Below, in pieces: positions 1 to 11,136 of a stretch of DNA of 21,241 bases. The DNA lies in the IMG/VR virus record IMGVR_UViG_3300022934_000238, positions 1 through 21,241 of that record. The stretch is one strand, 5' to 3'. Each line of letters begins with the position of its first letter. The stretch's first letter is position 1. The notes below the pieces were generated by a model. That model had not been told where the DNA came from and searched no databases. It was given only the letters and a program-made list of their open reading frames with translations. The stretch is from a virus. A program made the position numbers and the translations under genes.

Positions 1-883
1 TGAACAAGCGCCAGGACCCGTCGCTATCCTGCCAGGTAGAGCCGTCGTCGATACACGCTTCGCACGCTTCCCTACAGCCCTCGTCGTACTCGCCAGATGC
101 TGCGCACACGCTAAACAATACACCGCTACATTCTGGGTCAACCAGTCCAGCATCGCTCGAACAATGGGAATATCTCAACAAGCCGTCTCACAGCACATGA
201 AACGCCTCATAGAATGGGGATACATAGAAAAACTCAGACGCGAAGACCAAAGACGTAAATACGGCAAAAAAGGCGCTCTCTGGCGCGTCATATACGACCC
301 TACAATGTCCATGAAAGACGTCGAAGCCTGGGCAAGTAGACAACCACTCACCGAAGATGAAGAACAAGAAGCACTACAAGAAACCATCCAACAAGCAAAC
401 AAAGGCGCTAAAGGACAACAGTCTAAACGCAAAAAACAGCCTGTGGATAACTCGGCCTCACACAAGCCCCAGCTTGTAGAAACAGACAAAGGTAATGACA
501 ACTGCTACAAGCTGCAGCTTGTGCAACCTCACAAGACGGAGCTTGTACTCAACTACTACAAGGAACTAAGTAGTAAAAAGATAGAACAGAATGATTGTAG
601 AAGGCTCTGTTTACAATACGCACATGCCGTCAACGCTCGATGGGGTCAGACCTACAGGCATGACATGCGACAAGAGGCACTGGCAGCTCAGTTGCTCGGC
701 ATGGGCTACACACTCGATAGCTTTGCACGGGACAGCGCCAGCCTACTCGACTACCTGCGCAAGAACAACAAGCAGCCGCCGGCTAGTCTGCAATACTTCA
801 TAGCTAGAAAGCAGAAGCAGAGCCAGGCAAAGACGCCAGAGGACATCGTTAAACAAACCGTGAGCAAGATGAAGATGCCATGA
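1..883 (+). CDS. Winged-helix replication initiator, lambda-O-like (5' partial)
   Basis: The frame is open from base 2 with no stop. The first ATG (164) lies inside the helix-turn-helix, so the true start is upstream of the window; 293 residues are visible. Visible residues 10-40 (PGRAV, then a helix through ALVVLARCCAHAK) and 48-75 (IARTMGISQQAVSQHMKRL, then WGYIEKL) form a winged helix of the kind found at the N terminus of phage replication O/RepA-like proteins and MarR-like regulators. Residues about 95-195 are a charged, Q/K-rich linker. A compact C-terminal part follows (YAHAVNARWGQTYRHDMRQ to the end). The linker coding sequence holds a DnaA box and three palindromic iterons. This is the arrangement of lambda O, where the initiator binds an origin inside its own gene. 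I infer origin recognition plus possible autoregulation. A plain transcription regulator is the alternative. A/C-rich codons such as ATA and AGA set it apart from the genes downstream. Confidence 0.75.
   Translation, partial: EQAPGPVAILPGRAVVDTRFARFPTALVVLARCCAHAKQYTATFWVNQSSIARTMGISQQAVSQHMKRLIEWGYIEKLRREDQRRKYGKKGALWRVIYDPTMSMKDVEAWASRQPLTEDEEQEALQETIQQANKGAKGQQSKRKKQPVDNSASHKPQLVETDKGNDNCYKLQLVQPHKTELVLNYYKELSSKKIEQNDCRRLCLQYAHAVNARWGQTYRHDMRQEALAAQLLGMGYTLDSFARDSASLLDYLRKNNKQPPASLQYFIARKQKQSQAKTPEDIVKQTVSKMKMP
442..450 (-). promoter_or_regulatory. DnaA box, perfect consensus
   Basis: The + strand reads TGTGGATAA, so the - strand is TTATCCACA, the exact E. coli high-affinity DnaA box. It lies 11 bases before the first palindromic iteron, inside the linker-coding part of the first gene. 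A single 9-mer can occur by chance in 21 kb. Its position next to the iterons is what makes it credible as part of a replication origin. Confidence 0.6.
461..478. repeat. Origin-type palindrome, copy 1
   Basis: The sequence is CACAAGCCCCAGCTTGTA. Arms ACAAGC and GCTTGT (462-467 and 472-477) are perfectly complementary around CCCA. It encodes HKPQLV in the first gene. It shares the pattern YACAAG-N6-CTTGTR with copies at 506, 530 and 7075. Interpreted as an iteron bound by the winged-helix protein. Confidence 0.7.
506..523. repeat. Origin-type palindrome, copy 2 (perfect 16-bp core)
   Basis: The sequence is TACAAGCTGCAGCTTGTG. The core 507-522 is a perfect 16-base palindrome. It starts 45 bases after copy 1, in the same reading phase, and encodes YKLQLV. 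Likely a dimer binding site. Confidence 0.72.
530..547. repeat. Origin-type palindrome, copy 3 (degenerate left arm)
   Basis: The sequence is CACAAGACGGAGCTTGTA. The right arm GCTTGT is intact and the left arm differs at one base (ACAAGA). It starts 24 bases after copy 2 in the same reading phase and encodes HKTELV. The repeated K-x-[QE]-L-V peptide is most simply read as a by-product of selection on the DNA. Confidence 0.65.
547..600. other. A+T-rich stretch, candidate DNA-unwinding element
   Basis: A hand count gives 37 of 54 bases A or T (about 69%), well above the surrounding sequence, directly after the third iteron. In lambda-type origins the A+T-rich unwinding element flanks the iterons inside the O gene, and this has the same order. 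It is also coding, and no melting calculation was possible. Confidence 0.4.
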
Positions 884-6229: not shown

Positions 6230-7044
6230 GCCAAGATGATAACCAGCAAGCCCAGGAACAACCGGCAGAAGCGTCGGCTCCTGACGGATTGATGGCCGCC
6301 GCCGCTCTAGCTGAAGATGAGGCAACGACTGATGAAGGCCAAGAAATCCCTCACCTCGCGGAAGACGCCCAGCCGGCTGAGGGGGAGGATGAGGACATCC
6401 TCTATGAAAGGCCGGAATGGTTCCCGTCTAAGTTCTGGGACGAAAAAGAAGGGCCAGACTTAGAGAAAATAGTTAAGTCCTACGAAAGCATGGAAAAGGC
6501 TTTTTCGCAGGGCAAGCACAAAGCGCCGGAAGAATACGACACCGCTGTTCTGACAGAGGCTGGGTACAACATGGAAGACCCGGTAGTCAGCGCATATGTA
6601 GACTGGGCGCAGAAATATGGCGTGAACCAGGCTGCATTTGATGAGCTAGCGGGCTCGATAACCAATCTTGCTTTAGAGAACGGCGCTGCCTTGGAAGCCG
6701 ACACAGAGGCTGAGCGGCAAGCACTTGGGCCAAACGCGGACGCTATCATCAAGTCTAATATAGACTGGGCTGACGGCCTGACCCGCAAAGGCATCATTTC
6801 TGAAGAAGAGCGGGCAGAGTTGAACATCTGGGGCGGCACAGCTATCGGGCAGCGTCTGATGCAGAAAGTACGGTCTATGACTGGCGATATGTCTCAGATA
6901 CCGATTGCGGATGTGGCTGAAGCCGGGATGTCAGAGGATGACTTCCGCGCTTCCATGCAAAGCAAGATGGCTGACCCGCGTTATGGCAATGATATGAACT
7001 ACACGCGGCAAATCGAGCAAGAGTTCCAGAGGCGCTACGGATGA
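6226..7044 (+). CDS. Capsid scaffolding (assembly) protein
   Basis: 272 residues. The acidic, disordered N-terminal 60 residues are followed by the scaffold signature RPEWFPSKFWDEKEG then IVKSYESMEKAFSQG (about residues 62-96) and a helical body. The C terminus ends DPRYGNDMNYTRQIEQEF, a typical shell-binding helix. It should line the inside of the prohead, direct capsid protein assembly and leave before or during packaging. It lies directly before the major capsid gene, as in T7 (gp9 then gp10). After its stop the coding chain breaks for 197 bases. Confidence 0.88.
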   Translation: MSQDDNQQAQEQPAEASAPDGLMAAAALAEDEATTDEGQEIPHLAEDAQPAEGEDEDILYERPEWFPSKFWDEKEGPDLEKIVKSYESMEKAFSQGKHKAPEEYDTAVLTEAGYNMEDPVVSAYVDWAQKYGVNQAAFDELAGSITNLALENGAALEADTEAERQALGPNADAIIKSNIDWADGLTRKGIISEEERAELNIWGGTAIGQRLMQKVRSMTGDMSQIPIADVAEAGMSEDDFRASMQSKMADPRYGNDMNYTRQIEQEFQRRYG

Positions 7045-7072
7045 CCAAATACCAGATGTAGCGGGTGGTATG

Positions 7073-7101
7073 TTTACAAGCTCCAGCTTGTAGTATATTT
7101 T
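7073..7101 (+). promoter_or_regulatory. Possible promoter for capsid genes
   Basis: TTTACA (7073-7078, 5 of 6 matches to TTGACA) precedes an A/T-rich block, TAGTATATTTT (7091-7101). Candidate -10 elements are TATATT at 7094 (15-base spacer) or TATTTT at 7096 (17-base spacer). Neither is ideal. It overlaps the palindrome at 7075-7092, so any bound protein would occupy the -35/spacer. Identification rests on similarity to sigma-70 consensus only. Confidence 0.35.
7075..7092. promoter_or_regulatory. Palindromic operator identical in pattern to the origin iterons
   Basis: TACAAGCTCCAGCTTGTA: 8-base arms TACAAGCT and AGCTTGTA are perfectly complementary around CC. It is the most symmetrical of the four YACAAG-N6-CTTGTR copies and the only one outside the first gene. 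It is non-coding, 31 bases after the scaffold stop and within a promoter-like sequence. I infer a binding site for the same winged-helix protein, acting as an operator for the capsid transcript. Confidence 0.6.
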
Positions 7102-7135
7102 GGTATTGACTGATAACCCTTTGGGCCGGTCTGGC

Positions 7136-7193
7136 GTGTAGAAATACACCGGGCGCTGACGTTCAGCGAAGCCAGAGGCCGGGGCACTCCCCG
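7136..7193 (+). other. Structured leader of the capsid mRNA (three hairpins)
   Basis: Three stems follow in series. 7136-7149: GTGTA-GAAA-TACAC, 5 bp closed by a GNRA tetraloop. 7154-7168: CGCTGA-CGT-TCAGCG, 6 bp. 7180-7193: CGGGG-CACT-CCCCG, 5 bp. None is followed by a U-run, so they are not rho-independent terminators. An alternative pairing CCGGT (7126-7130) with ACCGG (7148-7152) would compete with the first stem. Possible roles are mRNA stability, an RNase processing site or translation control. Folding was done by eye. Confidence 0.45.
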
Positions 7194-7241
7194 ATAACCT
7201 ACAAGGCGCAAGTTTTGTTTTGGTTCCACGAGGAGTGAGAT

Positions 7242-8096
7242 ATGTCAACGAACCTCTCTCCCGCATTTGTACAGCTCTTTGAAGCGGAAGTGCATCAGGC
7301 CTACCAAGGCGCTGCGCAGCTTCGGGGCACTGTTCGTATGCGGACTGGTGTTGTCGGGGACACCGTAAAATTCCCGAAAGTGGGCACAGGCCAAGCCTCT
7401 GTCCGTTCTCCGCAGACCGACGTCGTGCCTATCAACGGCGAGTTCAGCCAAGTTTCCGTTAGCCTTACTGACTATGTGGCTGCGGAATACAGCGATGTGT
7501 TCAACCAGGCCAAAGTCAATTTTGACGAGCGCCAGGAACTGGCACAACTAGTCGGTAACGCAATCGGCCGTCGTGAAGACCAGATTATTATCGACGCGCT
7601 TGATGCTGCATCTGCGGGCTCATCTGTAGCTAAAACGGTTGTGACGACCGGCTCGGCTACAGCTTCTAACCTCAACGTCGGTAAAATCATTGCTGCGAAA
7701 AAAGCACTGGATGCCAAGAACGTGCCGGCAGGTGACCGTCACTTCGTCATTCATGCCAACAACCTCGCAGGCTTGCTCGGTGACGAGCGGGCGATTTCGG
7801 GCGATTTCCAAGGCAGCATCCGTGCTTTGGTAAGCGGCGAAGTCAGCTCGATGATGGGCTTTACCTTCCATGTCGTGGGTGACCGCGATGAAGGCGGCCT
7901 GCCGCTGTCTACCAATGACCGTACCTGCTTTGCGTTCCACCGCTCGGCAATCGGTTGTGGTGTGGGCATCGCGCCGAAGACAGAGGTCAACTACATCCCA
8001 GAAAAAACGTCGTTCCTTATCACGGCGATGCTTTCGATGGGTGCCGGTGCAGTAGACGTTAACGGTATCGTTGATGTCACCTGTGACGAAAGCTAA
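7242..8096 (+). CDS. Major capsid protein (BPP-1/HK97-fold type)
   Basis: 284 residues. AGGAG at 7231-7235 lies 6 bases before ATG. The opening LSPAFVQLFEAEVHQAYQGA, the VGDTVKFPKVG hairpin, the DQIIIDAL helix and the C-terminal VGIAPKTEVNYIPEKTSFL then GAVDVNGIVDV are the order seen in the short capsid proteins of BPP-1-like podoviruses, which have the HK97 fold. Many copies form the icosahedral shell. There is no obvious N-terminal delta domain, consistent with a separate scaffold gene just upstream. The dedicated promoter-like region, structured leader, strong ribosome-binding site and downstream terminator all fit a highly expressed gene. Confidence 0.92.
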   Translation: MSTNLSPAFVQLFEAEVHQAYQGAAQLRGTVRMRTGVVGDTVKFPKVGTGQASVRSPQTDVVPINGEFSQVSVSLTDYVAAEYSDVFNQAKVNFDERQELAQLVGNAIGRREDQIIIDALDAASAGSSVAKTVVTTGSATASNLNVGKIIAAKKALDAKNVPAGDRHFVIHANNLAGLLGDERAISGDFQGSIRALVSGEVSSMMGFTFHVVGDRDEGGLPLSTNDRTCFAFHRSAIGCGVGIAPKTEVNYIPEKTSFLITAMLSMGAGAVDVNGIVDVTCDES

Positions 8097-9067: not shown

Positions 9068-11136
9068 GCCGGATACAGCAATACCAGGCAAACTTTACGG
9101 TTGGTGAGCTTGACCCGTTGCTGCGTGGGCGCATTGACCTACAACAGTATTATTCTTCTGTTGAGACGGCCGACAATGTGGTGTTCGAGCCGCAAGGTGG
9201 TTTTAGCCGCCGGCCTGGCCTGCGTTTCCTCAAAGATATTACGGCTGACAACCCTGATAATGGCTCGGCTTTAATACCCTTTGAATTTTCGACGACGCAA
9301 AACTTTATGATTGTGGCGTCGGCCTACAACAATGCAACCACCATCCGGTTCCGTTTCTACGCTGACCTGCAATTACTGACGGACATTAACGGCAGCGGAA
9401 ATGACTATCTCGATTATAGTGTCGGCACATTGTACGACGTCAGCACCTTTGACATGGACAAGCTGTATTACACGCAGTCCGCTGACACGCTAATAATCGT
9501 CAATGAAAACTTCGCACCCTTCAAGGTGGTGCGCGGTGCCAATAACACGACCTGGACAGCTTCGGCACTATCTCTGACAAAGCCTAAGCTGCAATACACT
9601 GCTGCGACGACCAATCCTTCAGCAACCCTGACGCCGAGTGCAGTTGAAGGCACAGTCACGCTAACCGCCAGCTCTGGCGTGTTTACGTCCTCTCATGTTG
9701 ACCAATATGTAAACAGCCTCAATGGTTTCGGTCGGGCTAGAATTGTAAGCCAGACAAGCAGCACAGTCGTTACCGCCGTTACTGAAGTTCCGTTTTTCTC
9801 AACAGACGCAATCGCCAGTGGCTCATGGGAGCTAGAGACTGGTTATGAAGACGCCTGGTCAAACACTCGTGGCTGGCCGCGAACCTGTTCCTTCCACGAA
9901 GGCCGGTTGTATTTTGGCGGCAGCGCCTCAGACCCGACCACATTGTTCGGCTCTAAGGTATCTGACTTTTTCAATTTCAAAGCTGCCGAGGCGCTTGATG
10001 ACGATGCCATCATAGCCACGCTGTCAACGGACAGTGTGAACGCCATCACCGGCATCCGCTCTGGCCGGGACTTGCAGCTATTCACAACTGGGGCTGAGTT
10101 CTTTGTCCCGCAGGCCGACTTAGACCCGATTACGCCAAGTAACATCACGGTTAAGTCAGCGACACGCCGAGGCAGCAAGTTTGGCATCCGGCCACAGGCT
10201 GCTGAAGGCGGCACCCTTTTTATACAGCGGCAGGGTAAGGCTCTGCGTGAAATGCTGTTCAGTGACGTAGAGCTGTCGTACGTGGCAAACAATATCTCCC
10301 TGTTGTCGTCTCATATGATAGTCGACCCACAAAGGATGGCTCTACGCCCTTCTACGGACACAACTGAGGGTGACCTGCTGCTTATCGTCAACGGCACCTC
10401 TACGACTGGCTATCGGGCCGCAAGCACGGGTTTTGCCGGCACCATTGCTGCCTTTATGCTGAACCGGCCCCAGCAAATCGTGGCTCCGTCGAGCTTCACT
10501 ACGGATGGCGACTTTGTCGATGTTGGCGTTGATTTAGACGATATTTACGTCATCGTGAAACGCACCATCAACAGCGCCACGAAATACTATCTGGAGGTGT
10601 TTGACGATGACCGCACAACTGATGCTGCTATTCAGTATTATAACAGCCCCGTCTCGCCCGACCAGGCGCTCCCATCCAATTCCACGGCTTCTGGCCTTTC
10701 TCATCTAGAAGGTGAAACGGTCAAGATTATCCGCGATGACATTGTTGACACTGACCGCACCGTCAGCTCTGGCTCCGTTACGATGGGCGGCACACCAACA
10801 AGCTACGCTGAGGTTGGCCTCAACTACACCGTGACCGTGAAAACCCAACCATTCGAGCCGCGCCTGCCTTCTGGCACAGTGCAGTCACAGCGCCGCCGTA
10901 TTTTGGAAGTGTCGCCTATTCTTTACCGCAGCCAAAACATCACGCTGAACGGACGCAACATTTCATTAGAAACGCTGCCGCTTTCGGGCAGCGGCGCGGT
11001 GCCGACTTTCACCGGCATCAAAAAAACGCAGGGCTTTCTTGGCTATGACCGGGATGCGCAAATAACAATCAGCCAGAACCAGCCGGTGTTCTTCACTGTG
11101 CTGGCTATGGATTACAAAGTGAGTGTCGGTCAATGA
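9064..11136 (+). CDS. Tail tube protein B-like (nozzle)
   Basis: 690 residues, within the range of T7 gp12-like nozzle proteins (T7 gp12 is about 794). The N terminus QANFTVGELDPLLRGRIDLQ followed by NVVFEPQGGFSRRPGLRFL (about residues 8-56) is the diagnostic 'NFT.GE..P.L.GR.D...Y......N....P.GG..RRPG' motif. The W-P-x-x-x-x-F-x-x-x-R-L-x-F-G-G segment (about 271-286, WPRTCSFHEGRLYFGG) is also typical of the beta-propeller. It completes the tail tube and holds tail fibres. ATGA overlaps join it to both neighbours. Confidence 0.9.
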   Translation: MSRIQQYQANFTVGELDPLLRGRIDLQQYYSSVETADNVVFEPQGGFSRRPGLRFLKDITADNPDNGSALIPFEFSTTQNFMIVASAYNNATTIRFRFYADLQLLTDINGSGNDYLDYSVGTLYDVSTFDMDKLYYTQSADTLIIVNENFAPFKVVRGANNTTWTASALSLTKPKLQYTAATTNPSATLTPSAVEGTVTLTASSGVFTSSHVDQYVNSLNGFGRARIVSQTSSTVVTAVTEVPFFSTDAIASGSWELETGYEDAWSNTRGWPRTCSFHEGRLYFGGSASDPTTLFGSKVSDFFNFKAAEALDDDAIIATLSTDSVNAITGIRSGRDLQLFTTGAEFFVPQADLDPITPSNITVKSATRRGSKFGIRPQAAEGGTLFIQRQGKALREMLFSDVELSYVANNISLLSSHMIVDPQRMALRPSTDTTEGDLLLIVNGTSTTGYRAASTGFAGTIAAFMLNRPQQIVAPSSFTTDGDFVDVGVDLDDIYVIVKRTINSATKYYLEVFDDDRTTDAAIQYYNSPVSPDQALPSNSTASGLSHLEGETVKIIRDDIVDTDRTVSSGSVTMGGTPTSYAEVGLNYTVTVKTQPFEPRLPSGTVQSQRRRILEVSPILYRSQNITLNGRNISLETLPLSGSGAVPTFTGIKKTQGFLGYDRDAQITISQNQPVFFTVLAMDYKVSVGQ

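Follow-up and report, generated by a model that had tools for sequence, protein, structure and literature searches.

A putative replication-initiator site overlapping the capsid promoter, and a conserved structured leader RNA, in a group of uncultured marine phages

Background

Replication initiators of phages and plasmids bind repeated origin sites (iterons), which may lie within the initiator gene. Phage lambda carries four such iterons, 19-bp imperfect inverted repeats, inside gene O (PMC7466680). The locus described here resembles the lambdoid O origin in having imperfect inverted-repeat iterons of about 18-19 bp within the coding sequence of the initiator, but with three iterons instead of four, a MarR-type helix with weak O-like family matches and an extra site in the capsid promoter; no capsid-promoter copy is described for the lambdoid systems. 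RepE of plasmid F binds both its origin iterons and an inverted-repeat operator, repressing transcription (PMC13028717). The proposal made below likewise places an initiator at origin iterons and at an inverted-repeat operator; RepE, however, acts on its own gene, whereas the target proposed here is a structural gene at a distance of 6.5 kb, and in contrast to the RepE case operator and iterons share one palindromic form. In the literature surveyed, with thin coverage of subscription journals, no phage with an initiator site in its capsid promoter was found.

Sequence comparison has revealed conserved structured RNAs in marine phages, among them the manA and wcaG motifs (PMC2864571). They are associated with cyanophage metabolic genes, while the conserved marine-phage structure reported here precedes a capsid gene. 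By capsid (57% identity) and terminase (70% identity), the closest cultivated relative of the DNA under study is the OM43 phage MEP301, whose description contains no promoter or origin analysis (PMC8024684). MEP301 shares the order of genes around the terminase, portal, scaffold and capsid, and gives a weak match, correctly placed before the capsid gene, to the RNA model presented below; it differs in lacking the ACAAG palindromes at both places and in carrying a different initiator-like gene.

Results

Gene context. The window, i.e., the whole stretch of DNA analyzed, is a viral record of 21,241 bases and, with long relatives extending to 31-34 kb, is probably incomplete. It encodes a terminase, a portal protein, a T7-like scaffold and a podovirus-type capsid protein. 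The major capsid protein gene (7242..8096; PF19821, 3.1e-67; phrog_3437), which is the gene proposed to be regulated, lies on the plus strand, as do the initiator, iteron, promoter, operator and leader features given below, and is preceded by a Shine-Dalgarno-like GAGGAGT read from the sequence (7230..7236, plus strand). Between the end of the scaffold ORF (7044) and the capsid ATG (7242) there is a gap of 197 nt, and the palindrome at 7075-7092 falls within it, in agreement with its preliminary description as non-coding. A small protein at 3198-3689 matches phrog_4177 and shows a weak GNAT acetyltransferase signal; a putative acetyltransferase of MEP301 occupies the same place.

The putative initiator and its iterons. 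At the left end of the window lies the putative replication initiator gene (2..883), the 5' end of which is cut by the window (PF12802, 1.8e-8). Its product consists of an N-terminal MarR-type winged helix, a disordered linker encoded by the iteron-bearing stretch, and a C-terminal domain. Weak matches to phage replication-initiation families (phrog_270, 9.9e-9; phrog_391, 4.7e-7) span the winged helix and the stretch after it. The core of the recognition helix, SQQAVSQHM (residues 58-66 of the truncated ORF), is encoded at 173..199. In the AlphaFold model, helices occupy residues 48-55 and 59-71, and the linker (residues 137-191) has pLDDT below 50; a linker able to accommodate an embedded origin would be expected to be disordered in this way. 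A structure search with this uncertain model (pTM 0.34) returned weak MarR-like matches only, and relatives of the initiator were found neither among cultivated phages nor in prokaryote genome contigs. The weak family matches together with the arrangement suggest that the gene product is an initiator and that the iterons constitute its origin. The gene identities proposed in the preliminary description hold, both for the MarR-type winged-helix protein with its weak initiation-family matches and for the podovirus-type capsid protein.

Three iterons lie within the initiator gene: CACAAGCCCCAGCTTGTA (461..478), TACAAGCTGCAGCTTGTG (506..523) and CACAAGACGGAGCTTGTA (530..547). Nearly all operator-clade relatives carry two to four palindromic iterons in the initiator coding sequence, and in most genomes the last two are 24-26 nt apart and the first two 33-45 nt. 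All iterons of the window are read in one frame (HKPQLV, YKLQLV and HKTELV). The first iteron is read in another frame in L032 and L086 (TSSSLLK and TSSSLCK, respectively) and in the third frame in L028 and L017 (QAPPC and QAAPC), with the palindrome kept. As the palindrome persists in differing reading frames, the iteron is taken to be a DNA site, and its interpretation as a peptide repeat is rejected. Owing to an insertion, the linker between the winged helix and the iterons is about 80 residues longer in the L039 initiator than in that of L043.

Distribution of the palindrome. Exact matches to YACAAGNNNNNNCTTGTR (YACAAG-N6-CTTGTR) occur in the window at 461-478, 506-523, 530-547 and 7075-7092, with no others; 100 dinucleotide shuffles of the window contained 0 matches, and a reversed control pattern had none in the window itself. 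With three mismatches allowed the motif occurs at chance level, so only exact or near-exact copies were counted. The capsid-side copy is not, as had been claimed, uniquely the most symmetrical of the four: it ties with 506-523, each having 8/9 arm matches.

A looser pattern identified about three copies at the initiator gene and one at the capsid gene in 15 long genomes, with occasional single strays. Eighty loci were collected from viral contigs by searching with the capsid protein and without use of the site. Among their unique leaders the palindrome is found upstream of the capsid gene in 29 of 67, mostly 167-171 nt and up to 189 nt from the start codon, and outside the initiator gene and the capsid leader it occurs almost nowhere in these loci. 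When 2.9 million viral contigs were searched for the promoter together with the site, 85 stretches were obtained; about three are unrelated, and nearly all lie 168-175 nt upstream of this capsid gene or on a contig that ends in its leader. Because these 85 stretches were selected by the pattern, only the capsid-bait leaders are unbiased for the presence of the -35 element. A scan of the whole phage genome and relatives had been proposed as a check on the shared pattern; apart from rare strays, scattered copies were not found, and in the 15 long relatives the sites are located essentially at the initiator and capsid genes.

Promoter and operator geometry. A -35 element, TTTACA (7073..7078), and a -10 element, TATTTT (7096..7101), are separated by 17 nt, and this is the sole sigma70-type match on either strand of 6900-7300, which bears out the earlier reading of 7073-7101 as promoter-like. 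The operator TACAAGCTCCAGCTTGTA (7075..7092), a putative initiator site, extends from -33 to -16 if 7108 is taken as +1. Its overlap with the -35 element and the spacer was described correctly: the palindrome overlaps TTTACA and fills the 17-nt spacer. Across 101 leaders, TTTACA is located 34-38 nt (mostly 35-36 nt) upstream of the first base of the leader RNA described below and is followed after 17 nt by TAT at the -10 position; the distances in the unbiased capsid-bait leaders agree. Overlap of the operator with the core promoter occurs at fixed spacing across relatives, and in the operator-bearing clades, including one with ACAAC instead of ACAAG half-sites, both the -35 overlap and the distance to the RNA start are kept. 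The operator role proposed earlier is supported by the fixed overlap with the -35 element and spacer, while repression is suggested by geometry only.

TTTACA-N17-TAT is positioned 35-36 nt before the RNA start also in leaders without the operator. L017 has lost the capsid operator but kept its iterons and the promoter TTTACA-N17-TAATGG; L211/L254 keep iterons with a degraded capsid-side site, and the capsid-side operator is absent from more distant clades, whose iterons differ. These cases indicate that the site is not essential and that only part of the group has the operator-initiator link. The capsid promoter of L263, from the same genome as L215, has no ACAAG operator and carries TTACAC-N13-GTGTAA across its -35/-10 region, possibly the site of another regulator. 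In L006, a GC-rich intrinsic terminator (9169-9184) is present between the scaffold and capsid genes, and GC-rich terminators were recognized by eye also in L007, L009, L014, L023, L028 and L032; the window, L005 and L085 are without one. Where such a terminator separates the two genes, a capsid promoter would be necessary.

A structured leader RNA. The preliminary description, in the remainder of its observation confirmed, had missed a structured RNA that begins at the predicted +1 and spans 7108..7199 (covariance model R1, 107 bits). Hairpin H1 (7108..7131; helices 1 and 2) has the form GACTG-AYAA-CCC..GGG-C-CGGTC and hairpin H2 (7177..7199; helices 6 and 7) the form GG-C-CGGGG..CCCCG-AYAA-CC, so that each contains one AYAA/C internal loop, in opposite orientation. 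Between them lies a variable two-hairpin domain, which is lost in L263. The model, built from 17 leaders and run on 89 sources, gave 60 matches, a single one in each matching source and always in the capsid leader; as some sources duplicate one contig, 53 of the 60 alignment rows are distinct. In the alignment, 96.6% of cells pair, and both sides are changed in 25 of 30 pairs. The covariation score is 0.481; shuffles give 0.163 and slid partners less than 0.1. Having been fitted to the model, the alignment leans towards its structure, although the control with slid partners is clear. The consensus fold predicted with no structure supplied agrees with the model. Relatives that lack the operator retain the RNA, and weak matches extend to more distant loci. 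At the gathering score, Rfam 15 has no match in the window or in ten relatives (best weak match, E 5.8). On this comparative evidence the leader is a previously undescribed conserved structured RNA; candidate roles include a protein-binding site for translational control and protection of the 5' end of an abundant message.

Linked changes of recognition helix and half-site. Among 29 contigs tabulated, 27 have both iterons and a good capsid-side site, and the fifth base of the two agrees in every one (27/27). In L187, L188, L189, L190, L193 and L213 the iterons are ACAAC..GTTGT instead of ACAAG..CTTGT, and the capsid promoter contains ACAAC..GTTGT in ten contigs. L188 is the single contig that carries both, with three identical ACAACACCCAGGTTGT iterons and the operator ACAACCTCCAGGTTGT; the rest of this clade is split over contigs. 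The recognition helix of the ACAAC clade is SQQAVSRHF, compared with SQQAVSQHM or SQQAVSQHF elsewhere. Outside this clade, Arg or Lys is again paired with AAC..GTT iterons in L242 and L071 (SKH) and in L039, L043 and L078 (SRQ), while L211 has Leu at the helix position and keeps AAG iterons. The apparent recognition code would pair Gln (once Leu) with ACAAG..CTTGT and Arg/Lys with AAC..GTT, with Q64 as the putative specificity residue. This fits with the CRP and FNR families, in which an arginine at the equivalent helix position makes contact with a guanine.

In a tree of 60 initiators, the Arg clade falls, with strong support, within the Gln-type initiators. Three changes of the helix residue and three of the iteron base are seen, coinciding in 3/3 cases; three switches are too few for significance (sign test, p 0.25), and some of the joins are long branches. 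L215/L228 combine the helix TQSAVSQH with iterons ATAAGC..GCTAAT, suggesting that a second helix position may read another base. Right half-sites ATTGT, present in the operator and in part of the iterons (L214, L219 and L222, with the capsid leaders L259 and L261), might represent a second, weaker sign of joint change. Similarity of whole operators is only slightly higher within genomes (13.9/16) than between them (13.1/16); the argument is therefore based on the half-site switch and not on overall similarity.

Discussion

The co-occurrence of the two kinds of site, their near-absence elsewhere and the joint change of helix and half-site all favor the earlier suggestion that one DNA-binding protein links the origin and the capsid promoter; it is very likely, from sequence comparison, that the initiator binds both the origin iterons and the capsid-promoter site. 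A dimer of the putative initiator on 7075-7092 would cover the capsid -35 element and spacer and would keep the host RNA polymerase off the promoter. Repression is favored because the palindrome fills the 17-nt spacer and overlaps the -35 element, and because activators that bind in the spacer need longer ones. On this geometry the initiator probably represses the capsid promoter, and, with slightly less assurance, production of capsid mRNA would be restricted to times of scarce free initiator, for instance after its uptake by many new origins.

Activation through the same site, with late expression as the initiator accumulates, would be supported by identical binding evidence, and the -10 elements (TATTTT, TATCCT, TATGTC and others) depart strongly from consensus, which may leave the promoter in need of help. 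The site nevertheless overlaps the -35 element and fills a spacer of the normal 17 nt, and L017 retains a recognizable promoter after losing it. Spacer-bound activators of the MerR kind need spacers of 19-20 nt. An activating role is thus rather unlikely, though the best placed of the alternatives to repression.

Less probable still is that the capsid-side site serves replication control (handcuffing, titration or a second origin) and that its position in a promoter is incidental. Plasmids offer a precedent, as extra iteron clusters off the origin set copy number (incC of F, PMC13028717). Here, by contrast, the site is a single copy, and the operator-bearing clades preserve its place relative to the -35 element and the RNA start. 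That another regulator of the phage or host, and not the initiator, recognizes both sites is highly improbable, given that in three separate switches the residue in the initiator recognition helix changes along with the site base. The least credible alternative, a weak intrinsic terminator formed by the palindrome as RNA after the scaffold gene, draws on the terminator-like score of the window palindrome and on TATATTTT after its stem, but is rejected, as a GC-rich stem with a T tract is not kept in relatives: a T-rich tail is present in just 24 of 78 operator-bearing leaders, common variants (e.g., ACAAGCCCCAGCTTGT) break inner stem pairs, L006 has its proper GC-rich terminator just upstream instead, and the same sequence also lies inside the initiator coding region.

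If the initiator does repress the capsid promoter, its release could be coupled to replication. With three origin sites and one operator per genome, each new copy adds both kinds of site, so titration works only if initiator synthesis lags behind replication; relief of repression by rising copy number is a model with somewhat less than even prospects. The leader RNA, at the 5' end of the transcript, would add a separate second layer of capsid control. The combined scheme, in which the initiator provides a replication-timed late switch and the leader RNA, as a new class of structured leader, then sets capsid translation or message stability, is offered tentatively.

The timing of late genes in small podoviruses without their own RNA polymerase is poorly known, and this locus turns the question into a test with one protein and two pieces of DNA, for which the Gln/ACAAG and Arg/ACAAC pairs constitute natural specificity variants. 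The phages concerned form an uncultured, marine and widespread group, in which a new conserved structured RNA precedes the capsid gene. The shared initiator site suggests that in these phages capsid production may be directly tied to the copying of DNA.
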